DNA of 42,940 nucleotides, from positions 1 through 42,940 of the forward strand of contig NZ_ADFP01000024.1 of assembly GCF_000177335.1 (NCBI RefSeq), read 5' to 3'. The notes beneath the pieces are model-generated. The model ran no database searches and was not told where the DNA came from. It saw only the letters and a list, made by a program, of their open reading frames with translations. Shown piece by piece: positions 2,025 through 9,879 of this stretch; the first letter of the stretch is position 1; the number at the start of each line of letters is the position of its first letter. The translations under genes were made by a program, and so were the position numbers. Source of the stretch: Pyramidobacter piscolens W5455. GTDB lineage: Bacteria; Synergistota; Synergistia; Synergistales; Dethiosulfovibrionaceae.

Positions 2025-2636
2025 ATGAAAGAAATGATGAAATTCAGAGGAAAAAGCGCGTTTGGGGCGTTTCTGCTGGCGCTGCTCGCGCCGGCTCTTT
2101 TCGCCGCCGTGCCTCTGCCGGAAGAGGAGGCGGAGAAGCTGGAGGACTATCTGGCGGAGATCGACGCCCAGGCGGGGATGCTGATCCTCGAGGGGCCGGA
2201 CATCTCGCTTTACAACTATCCTCACGACATCGAGAAGGACCGCGCCGCCTTCGATCCGCGTAAAATCGACATCATCGTCGGCAACCGCCTCTACATGACC
2301 CAGATCAACGACTGGTTCCTGAACTTCGATAAATACGCGGGCAAGTCGGTGGAGATCGAGGGCTTTTACATGGACTTCGACGGCTTCACCTATGTGGGGC
2401 GCAAAGGGCCGATCTGCCCGTTCTGCACGGGCGGATACGTGAACTTCGAGTTCAAGTACGACCGCGACTTGTCGGCGCTCCAGTCCGAAAAGTCATGGGT
2501 CAAGGTGCGCGGCATCCTGCGCGAGGGCAGCGTGCCCTCCGTCTTTGAGAAGGGCACGATGGAGCCTTTTTACTACATCGAGGCCATCACGGTCGAAAAG
2601 ATGCCCAAAGTCGGCAAAGCGACCGTGCGCGACTGA
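2025..2636 (+). CDS. Secreted DUF1980/TIGR03943-like OB-fold protein next to zinc ABC genes
   Basis: 203-residue protein with an N-terminal signal-like segment (hydrophobic residues about 13-27, AFLLALLAPALFAA). The body resembles the C-terminal domain of the DUF1980/TIGR03943 (YcgQ) family: YAGKSVEIEGFYMDFDGFTY, then ICPFC where that family has a Cys-rich motif, then WVKVRGILREG. Family members are usually fused to or paired with a DUF318 permease; here only the soluble domain is seen. It lies 22 bp downstream of the metal permease and before the operon terminator, which suggests a role in metal handling outside the membrane. Function is inferred from context only. ATG 2025 has AAGGA upstream; ATG 2034 is an alternative. 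Confidence 0.7.
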   Translation: MKEMMKFRGKSAFGAFLLALLAPALFAAVPLPEEEAEKLEDYLAEIDAQAGMLILEGPDISLYNYPHDIEKDRAAFDPRKIDIIVGNRLYMTQINDWFLNFDKYAGKSVEIEGFYMDFDGFTYVGRKGPICPFCTGGYVNFEFKYDRDLSALQSEKSWVKVRGILREGSVPSVFEKGTMEPFYYIEAITVEKMPKVGKATVRD

Positions 2637-2652
2637 GCGTTGCTGCAAAAGA

Positions 2653-2701
2653 ACGGGAGCCTGAACTCTGCTCAAAGAGCAAGGGACAGGCTCCCGTTTT
2701 T
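2653..2701 (+). terminator. Intrinsic terminator of the zinc ABC operon
   Basis: An 11-bp perfect stem (ACGGGAGCCTG with CAGGCTCCCGT) enclosing a second small hairpin (TGCTC/GAGCA), followed by five T. It lies 17 bp after the DUF1980-like gene and faces the convergent DUF6282 gene. Confidence 0.9.
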
Positions 2702-2727
2702 CGTGGCGCGTCGCACGCGTTTTCGGC

Positions 2728-3573
2728 TCAGCGTTCAAAGCCGAGCAGGCGAGCCGGCGTGTCGCGGAACATCATGCTCAGTTCGGCGTCGCTGAAGCCC
2801 TGCGCCGCGAGCAGGTCCGCGTATTGTGAAAGTCCCTCGTCGGAGTAGGGCGATTGCGGTTGGCCGAAATCTGTGGAAAGGATCACCCGCTCCACGCCGA
2901 CGGCCCGGATCTGCGCGGCGATCGTCTCGATGGGCGTGCGTTTGTAATAGGTCGTGAAGTAACAATGTTCGACGATCGCGCCCAGCGCCGCGGCCTCGCG
3001 CTGCTGGTCCGTCGTGTAAACGTCGGCAGGATTGTCGGCGTGCGTCAGGATCACCTGACAGCCCGTCTTTGCGCCGGCGCGTGCCAGCGCCAGTCCTTCC
3101 GCGGCGCTGACATGCCCCGTGCCGACCAGCATCCCGCAGCGCTTCGCCGTTTCCAGCACCGCGAGCGCTTCGGGAATCAAATTTCCCCGAGCGTCAAGGA
3201 TGTAAATACACTTGCTCGAATCCACGTCGGGCGTTCCGTTTTGTTTTCGGAATTCCTGGTAGCTGCGCGAATCCATCGTCGGGAACCAGACGATTCGACC
3301 GCCCATCTTGCCGCTGACGGCGACCGCTTCGGGATTGAGTCCTCCGACCGAGCTGTTCAGCGTCACGCCGCCAGCGAAATGCAGTTCTTCGAATTGCTCG
3401 TTCAGCAGCGCCGCGCGGGCCGCCGTGTCGGCATAGTGGCATTTGATCAAAGCCCCCGCCAGCCCGGCGTCGCGAAAGCGCCGCGCCAGTTCGAGATCGC
3501 TGCATTTGCGCGCCGTCACGTCGGGCGAAGTGTGGACGTGCATCTCGTAAGCGCCGCGAAGACAGTCTCTCAT
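2728..3573 (-). CDS. DUF6282 metal-dependent hydrolase (amidohydrolase-like)
   Basis: 281-residue TIM-barrel hydrolase of the DUF6282 family. Metal-site elements are visible in amidohydrolase order: EMHVHTSPD (HxH) near the N terminus, GTGHVSAAEG with a central His, ILTHADNP with the next His, and ILSTDFGQP with the late Asp. The substrate is unknown. I chose the ATG at 3573 because GGAGG lies 8 bp upstream; a longer reading frame to 3696 would run through a terminator hairpin and into the upstream SLC13 gene. It is the last gene of the carboxylate cluster and may open or deacylate a cyclic or amide intermediate, which is inference. Confidence 0.8.
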   Translation of the reverse strand: MRDCLRGAYEMHVHTSPDVTARKCSDLELARRFRDAGLAGALIKCHYADTAARAALLNEQFEELHFAGGVTLNSSVGGLNPEAVAVSGKMGGRIVWFPTMDSRSYQEFRKQNGTPDVDSSKCIYILDARGNLIPEALAVLETAKRCGMLVGTGHVSAAEGLALARAGAKTGCQVILTHADNPADVYTTDQQREAAALGAIVEHCYFTTYYKRTPIETIAAQIRAVGVERVILSTDFGQPQSPYSDEGLSQYADLLAAQGFSDAELSMMFRDTPARLLGFER

Positions 3574-3597
3574 GTGTTGTGCCTCCAGTTCGTCGCG

Positions 3598-3647
3598 AAA
3601 AAGCGCGCCCTCACAGCCCGCAGCGGGCGTACCGAGGGCGCGCTTTT
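3598..3647 (-). terminator. Terminator/attenuator between SLC13 carrier and DUF6282 gene
   Basis: Stem AAGCGCGCCCTC/GAGGGCGCGCTT with an inner GCCCGC/GCGGGC hairpin and a T-run on the minus strand; T residues also flank the plus side, so it may work both ways. It sits inside the operon and probably lowers expression of the distal DUF6282 gene. Confidence 0.8.
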
Positions 3648-3661
3648 CGGAAATCCAGTTT

Positions 3662-4915
3662 TTAATAGGGTAGATAGAAAGGGATGACGGCGACAATGAC
3701 CAGATAGGTTACCAGCAGCATCGGCAGTCCTGCTTTGACGTAATCCACGAACCGGTACTGCGTCCAGCCGACGGTCATCATGTTCTGCGGGGCGGCGAAA
3801 GGCGTGGCGTAGGACGCGGCGCCGGCCAGCGTGATGATCATGCAGATGGGATAAGGACTGACGTTGATCGCTTTGGCGATGGAAACGCCGATGGGCATGA
3901 ACAGCATGATCGTGGGAATATTGGACATCACCTGAGTGAGAATTGCGGCGGCGATGAAGATCACCGTCGTGATCATGAACGTGCTGGGATGTTCGCCGAG
4001 AATCTGCAAGATCAGTTCAGCCATGGCGGCACCGGCGCCGCTTTTCTGCACGCCTGTGGAAATGGCGGTCAACGAACCGACCAGCAGCATGCAGTTCCAG
4101 TCGATGGCGGCGATGGCTTCCCGAACGGTCATACACTTGGTGCCCATGATAACCAGCGAGCCGATCACCGCCGCCACGTGCATGGGCATCTTCTTGGGAC
4201 TCAGCGCGATGACTACCAACACGGCAGCCATGGTGATGCAGGCGATGGCGGCCTTGTTTTTGTCGAAGGGTTTCTTCTCGACCTTGGCGAACTCGGGGAC
4301 ATATCCCGTGTCGGGCAGGAACTTCATGCCCACGAAAGTGAAGTACAGCGTGCCGAGAACGCAAATGCCGAGACCAAAGGGCGTGATGCCGAAGAATCCA
4401 AACGGCGTCAGACCGAGGTCGGCCATGGCGTTGGCCGCGGAAGCGTTGGAACCGACGCCGACCAGCGTCACGAAGCCGCCGAATTGAGCGCCGAAAAGCA
4501 GCGCCATCAGCGTGCGTGAAGAGCCGCAGCCGGCGGAGAAACACATGGCCGTGACCAGCGGGGCCATGGCCGTCATCACGCCGATGTTGCTGCACACCGA
4601 ACTGAGGGCGCAGGAGACGATCAGCGTGGCGAGGACGATGTTGCGCTCGCTCTTTCCCGTGATCTTCACCATCTTTTCGCCGATGATGTCGGTCAGACCG
4701 GTGTGGAACAGCGACGATCCGACGATCATCATGCCGGCCAGCAGCACGATGGTGTTGCTGTTGTAGCCCTTGAAGATATCGCCGACGGGAATAATGCCCG
4801 CGTAGGCGTAAGCGATCGAAGCGCCGATGGCGGTGACGAGGATGGGCACCGGCTCCCAGATGAACAGAACGATCGTGGCGGCGAGAATGATCAGCGCGAT
4901 TGCCATTTGGCTCAT
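3662..4915 (-). CDS. SLC13/DASS family carboxylate transporter
   Basis: 417-residue membrane carrier with about 11-12 hydrophobic segments and an internal two-fold layout. The two SLC13 hallmark SN-type motifs are present: GVGSNASAANA in the first half and VMSNIPTIMLF in the second. Such proteins import di- or tricarboxylates with sodium or protons. ATG 4915 has AGGAGA 8 bp upstream. It lies 32 bp downstream of the RraA-like gene. The same cluster also encodes a complete TctABC system, so the locus offers two unrelated uptake routes for organic acids. The exact substrate cannot be read from sequence. Confidence 0.88.
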   Translation of the reverse strand: MSQMAIALIILAATIVLFIWEPVPILVTAIGASIAYAYAGIIPVGDIFKGYNSNTIVLLAGMMIVGSSLFHTGLTDIIGEKMVKITGKSERNIVLATLIVSCALSSVCSNIGVMTAMAPLVTAMCFSAGCGSSRTLMALLFGAQFGGFVTLVGVGSNASAANAMADLGLTPFGFFGITPFGLGICVLGTLYFTFVGMKFLPDTGYVPEFAKVEKKPFDKNKAAIACITMAAVLVVIALSPKKMPMHVAAVIGSLVIMGTKCMTVREAIAAIDWNCMLLVGSLTAISTGVQKSGAGAAMAELILQILGEHPSTFMITTVIFIAAAILTQVMSNIPTIMLFMPIGVSIAKAINVSPYPICMIITLAGAASYATPFAAPQNMMTVGWTQYRFVDYVKAGLPMLLVTYLVIVAVIPFYLPY

Positions 4916-4947
4916 GATGGAGTCTCCTGTGGCGTTATTCGGCGAGC

Positions 4948-5646
4948 TTACGCGGGATACGCGTCGTCAATGATCTCGCAGCCTTTTTCTTCCAGCTTCT
5001 CGTCGACCCAGTCGCGCGTGGCGTGCCCTTCCTGCGCCGCTTTGAGCTTGCTCTGATCCTGTTCCATGAACTTTCGCGCTGCTTCCAGCACCCTTTCGGC
5101 ATCCCGACGGGGAATGACGATCACGCCGTCGGGGTCGCCGACGATGATGTCGCCGGGGTTGACCATGATGCCGCCGCAGGCGATGGGAACGTTGATCTCG
5201 CCGGGGCCCTCCTTGAAGGGGCCGCCGGGCGTGGTGCCCGTTGCGTAGAACGGCACGCCGCCGTCATAAAGGCTGTCGATGTCGCGCATCGGCCCGTCGA
5301 AGACGAAACCGGCCACGCCGCGCGATTTGGCGTAAGCGGCCATAACCTCGCCCATCAGGGACTGGCTGCGGTCACCCTCGTTGGAAACGACGACCACGTC
5401 GCCGGGCTCGATCATGTTCAGCGCCTTGTGAAGCATCAGATTGTCGCCGGGACGGGCTTTGACGGTGAGCGCCACGCCGACCATGTTGCCGTCGCCGGGT
5501 TTTGTCATCAGATGAATGTCGGAGTGGATGGCGCAGAGGCGGTTCATCGTATCGGCGATGTTGGAGGCGGGAATGTGACGGAACGCCTCGACGAGCTCTT
5601 GGGGCGGCAGGTTCCTTTTGGTGTACACGCGAAATCCTACGGACAT
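4948..5646 (-). CDS. RraA-family protein, HMG/oxaloacetate-type aldolase-decarboxylase
   Basis: 232-residue member of the RraA/MenG-like fold. Enzymatic members are class II 4-hydroxy-4-methyl-2-oxoglutarate aldolases and oxaloacetate decarboxylases; others (RraA proper) inhibit RNase E. The key catalytic stretch GEVMAAYAKSRGVAGFVFDG followed by PMRDID carries the G...RD motif that binds pyruvate and the divalent metal. GDPDGVIVIPR is also typical. I start at ATG 5646 because AAGGAAG lies 8 bp upstream; the in-frame ATG at 5673 has none. Its position between two organic-acid transporters favours the aldolase role. Confidence 0.82.
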   Translation of the reverse strand: MSVGFRVYTKRNLPPQELVEAFRHIPASNIADTMNRLCAIHSDIHLMTKPGDGNMVGVALTVKARPGDNLMLHKALNMIEPGDVVVVSNEGDRSQSLMGEVMAAYAKSRGVAGFVFDGPMRDIDSLYDGGVPFYATGTTPGGPFKEGPGEINVPIACGGIMVNPGDIIVGDPDGVIVIPRRDAERVLEAARKFMEQDQSKLKAAQEGHATRDWVDEKLEEKGCEIIDDAYPA

Positions 5647-5715
5647 GTGAAAAACTTCCTTTCTATTAAGCAAGAAACAGATTTTAATCGAGAAAACGCT
5701 GCCGAAAAAATATCT

Positions 5716-7236
5716 CTACAGTTCTTCTTCCTCGGTACGGCTCTCTTCTTCGGCCAGGGCGGAGGCACTGCGGGTTTTGCGCCAGCGGAAGATAAAGGGC
5801 GTCACGAAGGAAACGGCGGCGAGGATCAAAAAAACGCAGGAAATCGGCTTGCTGAAGAAGAACGACCATTTGCCGTCGCCGATCAGCATAGCCTGCTCAA
5901 AGTTAGCTTCAATCATCGGCCCGAGGATGAACCCCAGCACGACGGGGGCCGTGGGCGTCTTGATCGTTTTCAGGAAATACCCCAGCAGGCCGAATGCCAG
6001 AACGACCCAGATGTCGAACGGCTCGTTGCGCAGCGCGTACGCTCCCACCGTGCCGAGAATGAGGATGCCGCCGGAGAGCACCGTGGGCGAAATCTTCAGG
6101 ATCTTGGGGAAAATTCTTACGCCGCTGAGGCCGATGGCGAGGAAGAAAAAGTGGGCGATGCCGAGGCTGAGGAACAAGCTGTAAATCAGCGGCGCCTGTT
6201 CCTGGAACAGGAACGGTCCGGGCTTCAGCCCCTGGATCGTCAGAGCGCCCAGGAAGACGGCCGACACCGCGTTGCCGGGAATACCCAGCGTCAGCAGCGG
6301 CACCAACGAGCCGCCGACGACGGCGTTGTTCGAAGTTTCCGTGGCGATGACGCCGTCCATGCAGCCCGTGCCGAACGCCTCTTTGTGCTTGGAAAAGCGC
6401 ATCGCTTCGTTGTAGGAAAGGAACGTGGCAATGGTCGTTCCGGCGCCGGGGAGGATGCCGATGAACGTGCCGATCACCGACGAACGCAGCAGATTCGCCC
6501 AGCGTCTGGCAAACTCGCGCAGCGGCGGTACCTTGCCCGTCAGGGCGTTCATACGCGACTCCTTGACCTTTTTGACTACCATGTCGATCGCTTGCGGGAA
6601 CGAGAAAAGGCCGATCAGGCAGGGCACGATCTCGATGCCGCCGTACAGGCCGGGAACGCCGTCGGCGAAACGCGGATAGCCCGTCAACGGATCAGTGCCG
6701 AAGGTGCCGAGGAACATGCCCAGCAGCCCGGCAAAGAGACCGCGCGACATGGACTTGCCCGAGATGCTGGAGATGATCGTGATGCCGAAAACCATCACCG
6801 CGAAGTACTCGGCCGGGCCGAAAGACAGCGCCACCTTGGCCAGCGCCGGCGCGCAGAAACTCAGCACCGCGACGCTGAACAGCCCGCCGATGAACGAACT
6901 GATCACCGCGATGCCGAGAGCCTCCACGGCACGCCCCTTTTGCGCCATCGGATAGCCGTCCAGCGTTGTCGCCGCGCCGGCGGGCGTGCCCGGCGTGTTG
7001 ATGAGGATGGCCGTGATGGCGCCGCCATAGACGGAGCCGCAGTAAATGCCGCAGAGCATGGCGAATCCCGAGGCGGGCGCCATGCCGTAAGTGAGAGGCA
7101 CCGCCAGCGCCACGCCCATTGTCGAGGTCAGGCCGGGCAGCGCGCCGATCACGATGCCGACCGCCGTGCCGATAAAGTTCGAGAGCAGCACGCTGGGGAC
7201 CAGGGCGAGTTTCAAAGCTTCGAGCCAATCTAACAT
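5716..7236 (-). CDS. tctA: Tripartite tricarboxylate transporter large permease TctA
   Basis: 506-residue polytopic membrane protein of the TctA family, normal length. The N-terminal signature is clear (GIVIGALPGLTSTMGVALAV, residues about 27-46) followed by LLINTPGTPA-type sequence (ILINTPGTPAGAATTLDGYP in part). The large subunit couples ion flow to uptake of a carboxylate delivered by the periplasmic TctC. It begins 15 bp after the tctB stop, with AAGGAAGGAG before the ATG. Substrates of such systems include citrate, tartrate, glutarate and aromatic acids; none can be chosen here. Confidence 0.93.
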   Translation of the reverse strand: MLDWLEALKLALVPSVLLSNFIGTAVGIVIGALPGLTSTMGVALAVPLTYGMAPASGFAMLCGIYCGSVYGGAITAILINTPGTPAGAATTLDGYPMAQKGRAVEALGIAVISSFIGGLFSVAVLSFCAPALAKVALSFGPAEYFAVMVFGITIISSISGKSMSRGLFAGLLGMFLGTFGTDPLTGYPRFADGVPGLYGGIEIVPCLIGLFSFPQAIDMVVKKVKESRMNALTGKVPPLREFARRWANLLRSSVIGTFIGILPGAGTTIATFLSYNEAMRFSKHKEAFGTGCMDGVIATETSNNAVVGGSLVPLLTLGIPGNAVSAVFLGALTIQGLKPGPFLFQEQAPLIYSLFLSLGIAHFFFLAIGLSGVRIFPKILKISPTVLSGGILILGTVGAYALRNEPFDIWVVLAFGLLGYFLKTIKTPTAPVVLGFILGPMIEANFEQAMLIGDGKWSFFFSKPISCVFLILAAVSFVTPFIFRWRKTRSASALAEEESRTEEEEL

Positions 7237-7251
7237 GTGCGTCGCTCCTTC

Positions 7252-7686
7252 CTAATCGGGCAGAACGTTTGCCAGCAGTCCGGCCGGCAGCAGGACCCCG
7301 AGAACGTTATGGAACACGTAGTACAGCAACCCGGCAAAGACCGCCGCGATGAGGATGTGGCCGATCTTCAGCCTGCGCTCGATCACCGCCATCCAGATGC
7401 TGTAGAAAAGAAATGTCGCCACGATGAAACCGAGAGCGTGAAATGACAACAGATAGCAGAAGAACGAGCCGATGGAAAAGTACTTGTTGAAACGGATCTC
7501 GTCGGCGGAAGTCTGCGACGTGTTGCGGAGCTGCCAGGCGTAATACAGCGAGGTCAAGGCGCACAGCCCCATCAGGACCAGCAGCGCCTGCGGATAAGCG
7601 CGCACCTCGGCGGGCTCGTACAGAGAGCGCCACAGGAAGAACACGACGAAAACGACCTCGAGGGAAAGAGTTTTGACAAGAAACAC
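7252..7686 (-). CDS. tctB: Tripartite tricarboxylate transporter small permease TctB
   Basis: 144-residue protein with four hydrophobic segments, the size and layout of the TctB small membrane subunit. The start is GTG at 7686, supported by GGAGG 8 bp upstream. A terminator-like hairpin separates it from tctC upstream, and tctA follows after 15 bp. TctB sequences are poorly conserved, so identification rests on size, topology and the TctC-TctB-TctA order. Confidence 0.88.
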   Translation of the reverse strand: MFLVKTLSLEVVFVVFFLWRSLYEPAEVRAYPQALLVLMGLCALTSLYYAWQLRNTSQTSADEIRFNKYFSIGSFFCYLLSFHALGFIVATFLFYSIWMAVIERRLKIGHILIAAVFAGLLYYVFHNVLGVLLPAGLLANVLPD

Positions 7687-7708
7687 GGGATTTTCCTCCT
7701 TCGTTGTG

Positions 7709-7745
7709 AAAAAAGAGGGCCCTGCGGAAACGAGGAGCCCTCTTT
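7709..7745 (-). terminator. Partial terminator between tctC and tctB
   Basis: Stem AGAGGGC/GCCCTCT with a 16-nt loop followed on the minus strand by six T. Inside an operon this would leave the binding protein more highly expressed than the membrane subunits, a common arrangement. Confidence 0.75.
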
Positions 7746-7761
7746 GGCATCGGTCGGAGAA

Positions 7762-8730
7762 CTACTTGTTCGTCTTCACGCCGGTCTCGGCGATCACTTC
7801 GGCGATGTCGGCCTTCTGCTGCTCGACCAGCGCCGTGAAGTCGGCGCGGTTCATCCACATGTTGGCGGGCAGGCCGGCCTTGCCGTAGGCTTCGACGAAC
7901 TCGGGATCGGCAAACGCCTTCAGGAAAGCCGCTTCGATCGCGGCCACCACTTCTTCGGGCGTTCCCTTGGGAACGACAAGACCGCGCCAGGGGCCGTCCG
8001 CCACGTCGATGCCCTTTTCGGCGGCGATGGGCAGTTCGGGATACTCTTCGAGACGCTTGGGAGCCAGCGTCAGCAGATAGGCGACCTGGCCGCTGCGCAC
8101 CTGCTCGGAAAGCTCGGAAGGCGAGACGATCGTCAGGTCGACGTGACCGCCAAGCATGGCCGTAATGGCCTGGGAACTGCCGTTCGTGGGCACGCAGACC
8201 CATTTCAGTCCGCTCTTCTTGAGCACGCGGAGCACGGCGAGGTGGTCGCTGGCCATGGCGCCGGAGACGCTGATCTTGACGCCGCCGGGGTTGGCCTGCG
8301 AGGAGGCGACAAGCTCTTCCCATGTTTTGAAGCGCTCGCTCAGGCAGGCGATCGTTTCCGGTTCGTACACCATGTTGACGATGGGCGTAAAGGAATCGAT
8401 CGTGAAATTGGTCTTCTTGGTCAGAGGCGCGATGACGACGCTGGGCCCTACCTCGCTGAGCGTATAACCGTCGGGTCGGGATTTGGCGACTTCGGCGTAA
8501 CCGGTGACGCCGCCTCCTCCGGGGCGATTCTCGACCGCCAGGGGCTGGCCGAGGTATTTTTCGGCGACCTTCGCCGCCAGACGGGTAGTCATGTCGGCGG
8601 CGCCACCGGCGGCAAAGGGAACGATGATCTTGACGGGCTTGCCGGGATAGTCGGCGGCGAAACCGCACGCGGGAACCAGGAACGCTGCTGTTGCGACAAG
8701 CAGAGCAAAAATGCGACGATTCATTTTCAT
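7762..8730 (-). CDS. tctC: Tripartite tricarboxylate transporter substrate-binding protein TctC
   Basis: 322-residue periplasmic binding protein of the Bug/TctC family. A signal peptide covers about residues 1-26 (MKMNRRIFALLVATAAFLVP, then ACGFAA); the Cys could be a lipid site, though the lipobox is imperfect. Family landmarks follow: YPGKPVKIIVPFAAGGAADM and VENRPGGGG, both involved in ligand binding, and a late WRGLVVPKGTP. ATG 8730 has AAGGAAGG 8 bp upstream. It is followed by a partial terminator and tctBA. Bug proteins bind carboxylates through water-bridged contacts, so substrate prediction from sequence is unreliable. Confidence 0.93.
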   Translation of the reverse strand: MKMNRRIFALLVATAAFLVPACGFAADYPGKPVKIIVPFAAGGAADMTTRLAAKVAEKYLGQPLAVENRPGGGGVTGYAEVAKSRPDGYTLSEVGPSVVIAPLTKKTNFTIDSFTPIVNMVYEPETIACLSERFKTWEELVASSQANPGGVKISVSGAMASDHLAVLRVLKKSGLKWVCVPTNGSSQAITAMLGGHVDLTIVSPSELSEQVRSGQVAYLLTLAPKRLEEYPELPIAAEKGIDVADGPWRGLVVPKGTPEEVVAAIEAAFLKAFADPEFVEAYGKAGLPANMWMNRADFTALVEQQKADIAEVIAETGVKTNK

Positions 8731-8805
8731 TGCGGGATCCTTCCTTTCAGTCTCAGATTTTCAGGCGGATCGGAATCATATCCCGTGTCCGCCCCAAGCC
8801 GGAAT

Positions 8806-9705
8806 TTATTTGTAGTCCTTTTTCTCCCAAATGGAATAGATCGCTTCCATGGTTTGTGGCGCTACGCCGTTCAGCTCCTTGTTCATGCCAAGCGCCGCCG
8901 AACGGGCCAGGCGCTCCTTGACGCCGGCGGCGACCAACGGTTCGACGCCGACTTCTTTCATCAGTTCCATCGACTCGCCCACCTCGAAGGAACGACGTTC
9001 CGAGTGGATCAGGTCGGCGCCGGCCATCCGTCGGGCAATGTCCTTGAACGACTCTTTGTCCATCGTGCCGGCGACGGAGTCCATAATGCGCTCCTCGACG
9101 CCGCACTTGCGGGCGAACAGGAACGTTTCGACAACCAGAGCTTCGAAGCCTTTCATGAAAACGCTGCGCACCAGCTTGATGCGCGAAGCTTCGCCGGCTT
9201 TCGAGCCGGCGCCGACCAATGCGATCTTCATGCCGTAGGGCGTCATCGCCTCTTTCCAGCGTTCTGCGCCGTCGCCGGAGGCGAGCATCGGCACCTTGTG
9301 AGCGGAGACGACCAGCGAACCGAGCATGGCCGAGTCCACGTACTGCGCTTTTTTCTCGGCGAACAGAGCCGCTTCCTTTTCTTTGACGTGGGGCAGCGCC
9401 GTGGTCACGTCGACGAACAGCTGGCCTTCCTTCGCGAACGGTAGCAGCCCCTCTGCCGTGGAAGCGGTAAAGCGCGCCGGCACGCAGATGACGACGATAT
9501 CGCAATTTTTCACGATCTCTTCGGCCGACGCCGCCACCGCGACGCCGGCGTCGGCGCAGCGCGCGATCACCGTGTCCTTGTACGCGCCGCCCATACCGAG
9601 CGCCACGTCAAAGGCGCGAATGTCCTCGACGCCTTCGCTCTTCAGCCCTTTGCCCATGTGATAGGCCGCTTCGCCGAAACCGATGTAGCCAATTGTGACG
9701 CTCAT
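8806..9705 (-). CDS. 6-phosphogluconate dehydrogenase-like NAD(P) oxidoreductase with DUF1932 domain
   Basis: 299-residue enzyme. The N-terminal Rossmann domain starts with the nucleotide loop GYIGFGEAAYHMGKGL (residues 5-20). The C-terminal helical domain fits DUF1932 (PF09130): AGSKAGEASRIKLVRSVFMK carries the conserved Lys of beta-hydroxyacid dehydrogenases. It should oxidise a beta-hydroxy acid or reduce the matching keto acid with NAD(P). It is the first gene of the carboxylate cluster, directly behind the best promoter of the region, so it probably handles the imported acid or its first product. Substrate unknown. Confidence 0.82.
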   Translation of the reverse strand: MSVTIGYIGFGEAAYHMGKGLKSEGVEDIRAFDVALGMGGAYKDTVIARCADAGVAVAASAEEIVKNCDIVVICVPARFTASTAEGLLPFAKEGQLFVDVTTALPHVKEKEAALFAEKKAQYVDSAMLGSLVVSAHKVPMLASGDGAERWKEAMTPYGMKIALVGAGSKAGEASRIKLVRSVFMKGFEALVVETFLFARKCGVEERIMDSVAGTMDKESFKDIARRMAGADLIHSERRSFEVGESMELMKEVGVEPLVAAGVKERLARSAALGMNKELNGVAPQTMEAIYSIWEKKDYK

Positions 9706-9758
9706 CGCATCGCCCTTCTTTCCTGTATTTGAAAAAAAGATATTTAATAACTGAAATT

Positions 9759-9787
9759 ATACTATCAGCAGATTATAGCTTTGTCAA
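9759..9787 (-). promoter_or_regulatory. Sigma70-type promoter of the carboxylate cluster
   Basis: On the minus strand TTGACA (9787-9782), then 17 bp, then TAGTAT (9764-9759); a perfect TATAAT overlaps at 9761-9756 with a 20-bp spacing. It lies about 55 bp upstream of the DUF1932 dehydrogenase start in an AT-rich stretch. Confidence 0.65.
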
Positions 9788-9814
9788 TCAAAAGGATGTT
9801 CTTTCGATGATTAA

Positions 9815-9825
9815 TATACAGTATA
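9815..9825. promoter_or_regulatory. Candidate operator TATAC-A-GTATA
   Basis: An 11-bp perfect palindrome (TATACAGTATA) centred about 33 bp upstream of the -35 of the carboxylate cluster promoter. GTATAC-type half sites are used by many FCD-class GntR regulators of organic-acid genes (known for the family). No such regulator gene is in the window. The rest of 9706-9880 shows no gene. Confidence 0.35.
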
Positions 9826-9879
9826 CATTCGAGGCTGCCGTTACTCGCACAGTCTGGCGGAACAAGTTGGAAGAGCATC

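Follow-up and report, generated by a model that had tools for sequence, protein, structure and literature searches.

The stretch of DNA analysed here (the window, 42,940 nt) is contig NZ_ADFP01000024.1 of Pyramidobacter piscolens W5455, part of a 2.56 Mb draft genome that is 98.8% complete. On its minus strand lie seven genes in one direction (positions 9705 to 2728), which specify a dehydrogenase with a DUF1932 domain, the three components of a tripartite tricarboxylate transporter (TctC, TctB and TctA), an RraA-type protein, a carrier of the SLC13/CitMHS type and a protein of the family DUF6282 (Table 1). Each of the seven proteins exceeds the cut-off of its own Pfam model, which confirms the gene content given in a preliminary description of the locus made from the letters alone; the intergenic gaps measure 15–88 nt. 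The likely gene starts are the upper coordinates in Table 1, where that of the RraA gene is a corrected one. The DUF6282 gene most likely starts at 3573 and not at 3696, because an ATG follows GGAGG there and the open reading frames (ORFs) of three other Pyramidobacter genomes start at that place. The nearest named relative is Pyramidobacter sp. C12-8, with a DUF6282 protein that is 94% identical.

Table 1. Genes and candidate signals of the seven-gene cluster (window coordinates).
Feature	Position	Strand	Evidence
DUF1932 (6PGDH-like) dehydrogenase, 299 aa	8806..9705	-	Pfam 35.3 bits (cut-off 25); residues aligned in 13 loci
TctC substrate-binding protein, 322 aa	7762..8730	-	Pfam 166.6 bits (cut-off 27)
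TctB small permease, 144 aa	7252..7686	-	Pfam 55.6 bits (cut-off 29.1)
TctA large permease, 506 aa	5716..7236	-	Pfam 508.1 bits (cut-off 28.9)
RraA-type protein, by its residues a putative class II pyruvate aldolase, 232 aa	4948..5646	-	Pfam RraA-like 154.5 bits (cut-off 24.5); NCBIfam PRK06201 subfamily
SLC13/CitMHS carrier, 417 aa	3662..4915	-	Pfam CitMHS 236.8 bits (cut-off 31.9)
DUF6282 protein with predicted amidohydrolase fold, 281 aa	2728..3573	-	Pfam 198.8 bits (cut-off 26.8); TIM-barrel metal hydrolase fold
Candidate promoter TTGACA-17-TAGTAT, with TG	9759..9787	-	kept in 5/5 aligned Pyramidobacter genomes
Candidate operator TGTATACTGTATATT	9813..9827	-	TGTATAC kept in 5/5 Pyramidobacter genomes
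Terminator-like hairpin, tctC–tctB	7687..7761 (or 7765)	-	-27.8 kcal/mol, z -2.6; 2/200 shuffles as good
Terminator-like hairpin, SLC13–DUF6282	3590..3665	-	-39.5 kcal/mol, z -4.1; 0/200 shuffles as good
Terminator-like hairpin downstream of DUF6282	2630..2730	-	hairpin search

The cluster is no chance assembly and is largely co-conserved. Linkage was counted from homology calls on six-frame ORFs, the first gene calls having missed RraA in four G+C-rich loci (L008, L009, L012 and L026; the letters L, G and C mark loci, genomes and contigs). Among 45 DUF6282 loci, an RraA gene occurs within 10 kb in 14 (one of which, L094, is a weak 56-bit match), a DUF1932 gene in 10, a D-2-hydroxyacid dehydrogenase (2HADH) gene in five and an SLC13 carrier gene in 13; these counts are not independent, since one genus contributes seven of the loci and several of them are only short contigs. 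In the 13 SLC13-linked loci (in L009 the carrier gene appears in pieces), RraA and DUF1932 are each found eight times and 2HADH three times; either dehydrogenase is present in 11, never both together, and the two loci that have neither are contigs of about 5 kb. All SLC13-linked members fall into one clade in a tree of the 45 DUF6282 sequences (12 rows, support 100/99; L033, nearly identical to L032, was left out), and their sister clade consists of five members from Thermus, Pseudolysinimonas, Alicyclobacillus, a clostridium and a planctomycete (99/97), both clades together having a support of 96/81. On this tree, SLC13 linkage changes once, by a single gain, and RraA linkage five times (L094 scored without RraA, L026 with RraA, and L012b left out). 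A lack of co-conservation, which would refute the preliminary description, is thereby answered in part: the pairing of SLC13 with DUF6282 and the presence of a dehydrogenase stand well, RraA follows in eight of 13 loci and TctCBA less so.

A single pathway common to all DUF6282 loci was considered and given up, since the company differs among members that belong neither to the 17-row clade nor to L026, its neighbour. Among these, RraA is confined to the weak match in L094 and to L171 (not on the tree); the genes that do stand nearby encode HpcH-type or HMGL-like proteins or carriers (MatC, TRAP, Tct or others), and some members have none of the families searched for. DUF6282 genes near HpcH-type aldolase/citrate lyase proteins or beside HMGL-like proteins (L040, L042, L043 and L046; L092 and L097) stand as if the protein were feeding several unrelated C–C lyases. 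As to chance, RraA matches at 1e-25 amount to no more than 26 places in 391 clostridial genomes, and yet a strong RraA lies within 10 kb at two of 13 DUF6282 places that pass the cut-off; one more has a weak 56-bit RraA, and three of the 13 lie on contigs shorter than 7 kb. DUF6282 was found in five of 294 planctomycete genomes, with RraA in none of the four places fetched (the fifth is the genome of L011), and 14 of 47 plasmid records with a DUF6282 match were examined around the match.

The DUF6282 protein matches its profile (PF19799) over the full length (1–196 of 196) and, weakly, Amidohydro_2 (28.2 bits; cut-off 26.4). It carries the marks of the amidohydrolase superfamily, a TIM barrel with an HxH motif, two His and an Asp: H12, H14, H154, H178 and D235 are kept in 29, 30, 29, 29 and 30 of 30 diverse DUF6282 members, as are Asn73, Asn80, Glu159 and Glu202 in 29 and Lys44 and His46 in 27. 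Its predicted structure (pLDDT 94) matches binuclear hydrolases, including many phosphotriesterase-like lactonases, TatD and dipeptidases. It has the fold of the lactonases and other binuclear amidohydrolases, as well as their HxH, His, His, Asp set, at 10–18% identity among the matches listed, and differs from them in having Lys44-x-His46 after strand 2 and no conserved lysine at strand 4. The predicted fold speaks for a metal hydrolase and says nothing on its substrate. A full-text literature search did not find the name “DUF6282”, and is silent on proteins under other names; it does not suffice to show that such a pathway with DUF6282 is undescribed, as the preliminary description had supposed. 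A second DUF6282 gene is present in the genome of P. piscolens W5455, together with genes for a dihydroxy-acid-dehydratase-like protein and a GntP-like permease and adjoining an operon for an aminotransferase, RraA and an SDF carrier (the region as a whole being L026, 1306–9724, contig C17).

The sister clade suggests what such a hydrolase may do. In a Thermus oshimai plasmid, the DUF6282 gene is followed by genes for a PIG-L protein, an aldolase over the cut-off of NCBIfam PRK09262 and a DUF1932 dehydrogenase. The best solved relative of the PIG-L protein is 4-oxalomesaconate (OMA) hydratase (E 1.8e-55; next 4.5e-7), and a catechol 2,3-dioxygenase-type extradiol dioxygenase and an annotated 4-hydroxybenzoate 3-monooxygenase are encoded nearby. 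Pseudolysinimonas (L012) has the same four genes, its aldolase likewise over the PRK09262 cut-off. In protocatechuate 4,5-cleavage, LigC is the 4-carboxy-2-hydroxymuconate-6-semialdehyde (CHMS) dehydrogenase. PMC12314914 gives LigI as the 2-pyrone-4,6-dicarboxylate (PDC) hydrolase, LigU/GalD as the tautomerase, LigJ/GalB as the hydratase and LigK/GalC as the aldolase.

A survey of actinobacteria recovered DUF6282 in 18 of 394 genomes (21 rows: two are L012 itself, 14 were fetched and five, G653:C19, G836, G671 in two pieces and G693, were left out). The five closest further members (L163–L167, not included in the tree, with 57–64% identity to the protein from Pseudolysinimonas) all occur with an aldolase of the 4-carboxy-4-hydroxy-2-oxoadipate (CHA) type, DUF1932 and GntR; among the other nine places, only L171 has RraA and DUF1932. 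The hydratase is of the GalB type in three of these five loci and of the LigJ type in two, so that DUF6282 and DUF1932 are constant while the hydratase varies. All five aldolases scanned (L034, L012, L163, L166 and L167; L164 and L165 were not scanned) exceed the PRK09262 cut-off and, of those from L163, L166 and L167, only the last exceeds that of TIGR02798. L167 also encodes a 4-oxalomesaconate tautomerase over the cut-off (460.7 vs. 440) and LigJ (E 2.9e-156 to a solved hydratase); DUF6282, standing beside this tautomerase, is therefore no substitute for the tautomerase step. LigI gave no match at 1e-3 in the seven stretches (Thermus, Pseudolysinimonas and the five further loci), the rest of these genomes not having been searched for it. 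On a Roseomonas plasmid, DUF1932, LigAB-like proteins and LigK are accompanied by LigI itself (E 3.7e-76 to the solved enzyme).

By sequence, DUF6282 is not LigI: among the PDB matches of the window protein at E up to 1, LigI is absent, and its alignment to Roseomonas LigI covered only 64 C-terminal residues (27%, E 0.003 for one pair), the Thermus protein being likewise weakly similar (E 0.010). It would instead be another family for the same slot. Since DUF6282 and DUF1932 both stand with a CHA-type aldolase and an OMA hydratase where no LigI was found, we think it rather probable that DUF6282 fills the LigI slot in the Thermus/actinobacterial clade; for DUF1932 in the LigC slot, judged from the clusters only (LigC homologues were not searched for), the balance is about even.

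The operon in the window resembles these lower-pathway clusters, a link that the preliminary description had not seen: an amidohydrolase-superfamily hydrolase, a dehydrogenase and an RraA-fold protein stand in one cluster. It differs in having DUF6282 and DUF1932 at the places of LigI and LigC and no ring-cleavage gene, and no GalB or LigJ hydratase was found in the genome: PIG-L (GalB type) gave no match there, while a control query was positive in seven of 14 genomes, and a single LigJ query, run without a positive control, gave none either. The full-length Amidohydro_2 protein of contig C84, the sole one outside the window, was rejected as a LigJ candidate (E 0.067). The organism might conceivably scavenge PDC or OMA from aerobic neighbours with a lower 4,5-cleavage pathway devoid of ring cleavage, given that other bacteria have the three enzyme families in lower-pathway clusters and that L090, from Clostridia, has DUF6282, a GalB-type PIG-L protein, RraA and a TRAP carrier. 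We regard this as highly improbable, considering the negative hydratase searches in a nearly complete genome, a C84 protein unlike LigJ, an RraA protein under the CHA-aldolase cut-offs (see below) and a dehydrogenase that would be idle if the lactone itself were imported.

The best PDB match of the window RraA protein is the 4-hydroxy-4-methyl-2-oxoglutarate (HMG)/CHA aldolase of P. putida (E 1.9e-33). Residues R121, D122, N69, H73, K145, R191 and E195 align with R123, D124, N71, H75, K147, R195 and E199 of that enzyme, so that the diagnostic Arg123, Asp124 and Glu199 all have counterparts, while Asp102 is changed to Glu and Thr145 to Pro. According to PMC5065237, the enolate cannot do without Arg123, Asp124 is a ligand of the metal, and N71, K147 and R195 may contact phosphate. 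The protein exceeds the cut-off of PRK06201, an unnamed subfamily (264.6 vs. 231 bits), and lies outside both CHA-aldolase equivalog models (PRK09262, 148.7 vs. 179; TIGR02798, 128.1 vs. 304.5). The fold does not fix the reaction, because an RraA-fold enzyme 20% identical to HMG/CHA aldolase has, according to PMC8563752, 2-keto-3-deoxy-hexarate dehydratase/decarboxylase activity. An HMG-aldolase step has been proposed in the breakdown of 5,5′-dehydrodivanillate (DDVA), as stated in PMC12673573. The P. piscolens W5455 genome (G000) holds five RraA-type genes at E 1e-5, on contigs C24, C17, C23, C128 and C86.

In the DUF1932 dehydrogenase (PF09130), K177, R180, S181, K185, H234, R237, R238 and E241 are identical in all 13 proteins aligned; Lys177 and the Arg/Lys-rich set would suit a substrate with several carboxylates. 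Literature on DUF1932 offered nothing related, as judged by titles.

RraA loci elsewhere suggest a common logic, in which a 2-oxo acid would be produced by one enzyme or another and then cleaved by RraA. Of 26 clostridial RraA places, 18 were fetched: a 2-oxoacid-forming enzyme (2-hydroxyacid dehydrogenase or aminotransferase) lies within 6 kb in 10, a LeuC-type hydro-lyase in seven and one of the searched-for carriers in eight. The P. piscolens W5455 genome itself has an RraA–2HADH–Tct locus (L148, contig C23), besides the aminotransferase–RraA–SDF carrier operon of L026. Like the operon in the window, the 2HADH–RraA modules of Alloyangia, Pantoea and contig C23 combine a 2-hydroxyacid dehydrogenase, RraA and a carboxylate carrier (TctCBA or SLC13) near a LysR gene; they differ in that D-2-hydroxyacid dehydrogenase replaces DUF1932 and DUF6282 is absent from those stretches. 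A clostridial multi-step carboxylate cluster (L137) has Ldh2–TctCBA–DUF1932–RraA and two LeuC-type hydro-lyase genes.

These loci bear on an oxaloacetate-type route, in which DUF1932 would oxidise a malate-like 2-hydroxy acid, RraA would β-decarboxylate the product to pyruvate or a homologue, and DUF6282 would free the hydroxy acid from an ester or amide. The 2-hydroxyacid dehydrogenases and LeuC-type hydro-lyases of the clostridial loci are in its favour, as is an amidohydrolase of another family, matching 2ogj, that accompanies SLC13, 2HADH and RraA in L128, where DUF6282 is absent, and lies close to DUF6282 in L025 and L010. The solved protein 2ogj corresponds to cog3964, relatives of which act as hydrolases on acylated (R)-2-hydroxy acids. 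Moreover, oxaloacetate decarboxylation is a further activity of such class II pyruvate aldolases (PMC5065237). Nevertheless, the scanned aldolases of the related clade, all over the PRK09262 cut-off and beside an OMA hydratase, indicate an aldol route, although the window enzyme is not over it, and we consider the oxaloacetate-type route unlikely.

From the genes, families, residues and co-conservation observed, we propose instead, with middling confidence, the following substrate, reactions, order of dehydrogenase and hydrolase, and carrier roles: the operon may import a hydroxylated di- or tricarboxylate, along with the lactone or ester of this acid, and degrade both to pyruvate. TctCBA and the SLC13 carrier would be separate ways in, one most likely for the open acid and the other for the lactone or a conjugate; DUF6282 would act as a metal-dependent hydrolase opening the lactone or ester; DUF1932 would oxidise a hydroxyl of the product (or of a hemiacetal precursor) to yield a 4-hydroxy-2-oxo acid; and RraA would cleave the latter to pyruvate and a second oxo acid, or decarboxylate an oxaloacetate-like acid. 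The γ-lactone of a 2,4-dihydroxy acid, which is a guess, would fit all steps without a hydratase, as opening would free the 4-hydroxyl, oxidation would give the 2-oxo group and the aldolase would cut. We favour a lactone or ester route for the window because no hydratase was found in the genome and no ring-cleavage gene in the operon, and the RraA protein belongs to another subfamily, which elsewhere would cleave a 2-oxo acid made by a further enzyme. The preliminary description had suggested a branched or hydroxylated dicarboxylate degraded to pyruvate: the end product agrees with the aldolase residues of RraA and with the company of DUF6282 and DUF1932 elsewhere, and is partly supported, while a branched or hydroxylated carboxylate fits but may be a tricarboxylate, lactone or ester instead.

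Several observations weigh against this proposal. A lactonase and an amidase are indistinguishable by fold, because dipeptidases and TatD match DUF6282 equally. For DUF1932 to act on a hemiacetal in one clade and on a 2-hydroxy acid in another is an unproved stretch. In the window RraA, the Pro at the position of Thr145 and the scores under both CHA-aldolase cut-offs are unfavourable. Among the seven Thermus and actinobacterial stretches, the tautomerase was found only in L167 and is missing from six, so that a missing gene alone is no proof of replacement, and the ring-cleavage enzymes there are of the catechol 2,3-dioxygenase type (over the cut-off in Thermus, below it in L163) and not LigAB. 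RraA is absent from the operon in two of six Pyramidobacter genomes, both from the rumen, and in G032; the last has a 59% identical copy 17 kb away, and G002 has only 34–37% identical copies elsewhere. Two 5-kb contigs (L006 and L007) show only LysR, SLC13 and DUF6282, and the remaining sister-clade members hold partial sets (L035, PIG-L; L090, PIG-L and RraA; L011, RraA and 2HADH). Furthermore, eight of the 18 clostridial RraA loci have no dehydrogenase or aminotransferase of the families searched, five of the eight having a LeuC-type protein.

TctA, TctB and TctC are all present, as in complete tripartite tricarboxylate transporters, and the SLC13 carrier exceeds the Pfam cut-offs of CitMHS and Na_sulph_symp and is below that of NCBIfam TIGR00785 (DASS/SLC13 sodium-coupled symporter; 127.5 vs. 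198.6 bits). Comparison with the nearest solved relatives of TctC and the SLC13 carrier fixed no ligand for either. Our literature searches found no paper joining RraA with a tripartite tricarboxylate transporter and no operon with RraA, aldolase, hydroxyacid dehydrogenase and transporter, and the papers on Pyramidobacter and carboxylates were off topic, as judged by title and start of abstract.

Upstream of the DUF1932 gene, one promoter-like match was found where 1.8 were expected in the region, no more than chance for a single match; its TTGACA, 17-nt spacer and TAGTAT or TATGAT hexamer are, however, kept in all five Pyramidobacter genomes aligned, P. piscolens W5455 included (G001 was not aligned). 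The candidate operator TGTATACTGTATATT has one exact copy and five copies with one mismatch in the genome, and the reversed-pattern control none. Of two of the one-mismatch copies (L155 3556 (-); L156 273 (-)), one precedes another tctC with a divergent LysR gene; the other stands about 250 nt before an ORF resembling, by eye, pyruvate:ferredoxin oxidoreductase. The hairpin between tctC and tctB is also present in the three other Pyramidobacter genomes examined, and T runs accompany the hairpins after tctC, the SLC13 gene and the DUF6282 gene. The hairpin between the SLC13 and DUF6282 genes keeps its position in all six Pyramidobacter genomes despite a different sequence in two; it is therefore likely that DUF6282 is expressed more weakly or depends on read-through. 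In other clade members (L008, L010, L025 and L029), the two genes either overlap or have 10–20 nt between them. As for the single promoter of the preliminary description, a conserved promoter-like site is present, and the internal terminator-like hairpins speak against one even transcript.

The hairpin that sets DUF6282 apart would also suit two modules on one transcript, TctCBA–DUF1932–RraA and SLC13–DUF6282, acting on unrelated compounds. The former occurs alone in L137, RraA–2HADH–Tct is found on contig C23 (L148) and in Alloyangia, and SLC13–DUF6282 lacks TctA in L006–L009. RraA and a dehydrogenase, however, accompany SLC13–DUF6282 without TctA in L008 and L009, and DUF6282 without both carriers in Thermus and actinobacteria, and such a division seems to us quite improbable.

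As a tentative extension of the proposed import and degradation of a hydroxylated carboxylate, somewhat less probable than not, DUF6282 could be an unrecognised lactonase that replaces LigI in Thermus and some actinobacteria, where DUF1932 would replace LigC, the pair having been re-used by gut anaerobes, with RraA and two carriers, to turn a lactonised hydroxy-carboxylate into pyruvate without ring cleavage. The cluster is an operon for carboxylate catabolism that has three enzyme families in common with lower 4,5-cleavage clusters, minus their hydratase, and it makes DUF6282 and DUF1932, which have no assigned job, directly testable, the former by hydrolysis of PDC and the latter by turnover of CHMS or a 4-hydroxy-2-oxo acid. 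If the extension is true, a well-known aromatic pathway would have alternative enzymes, so far unrecognised, at two of its steps, and a carboxylate-to-pyruvate route in gut anaerobes would become searchable by gene set.

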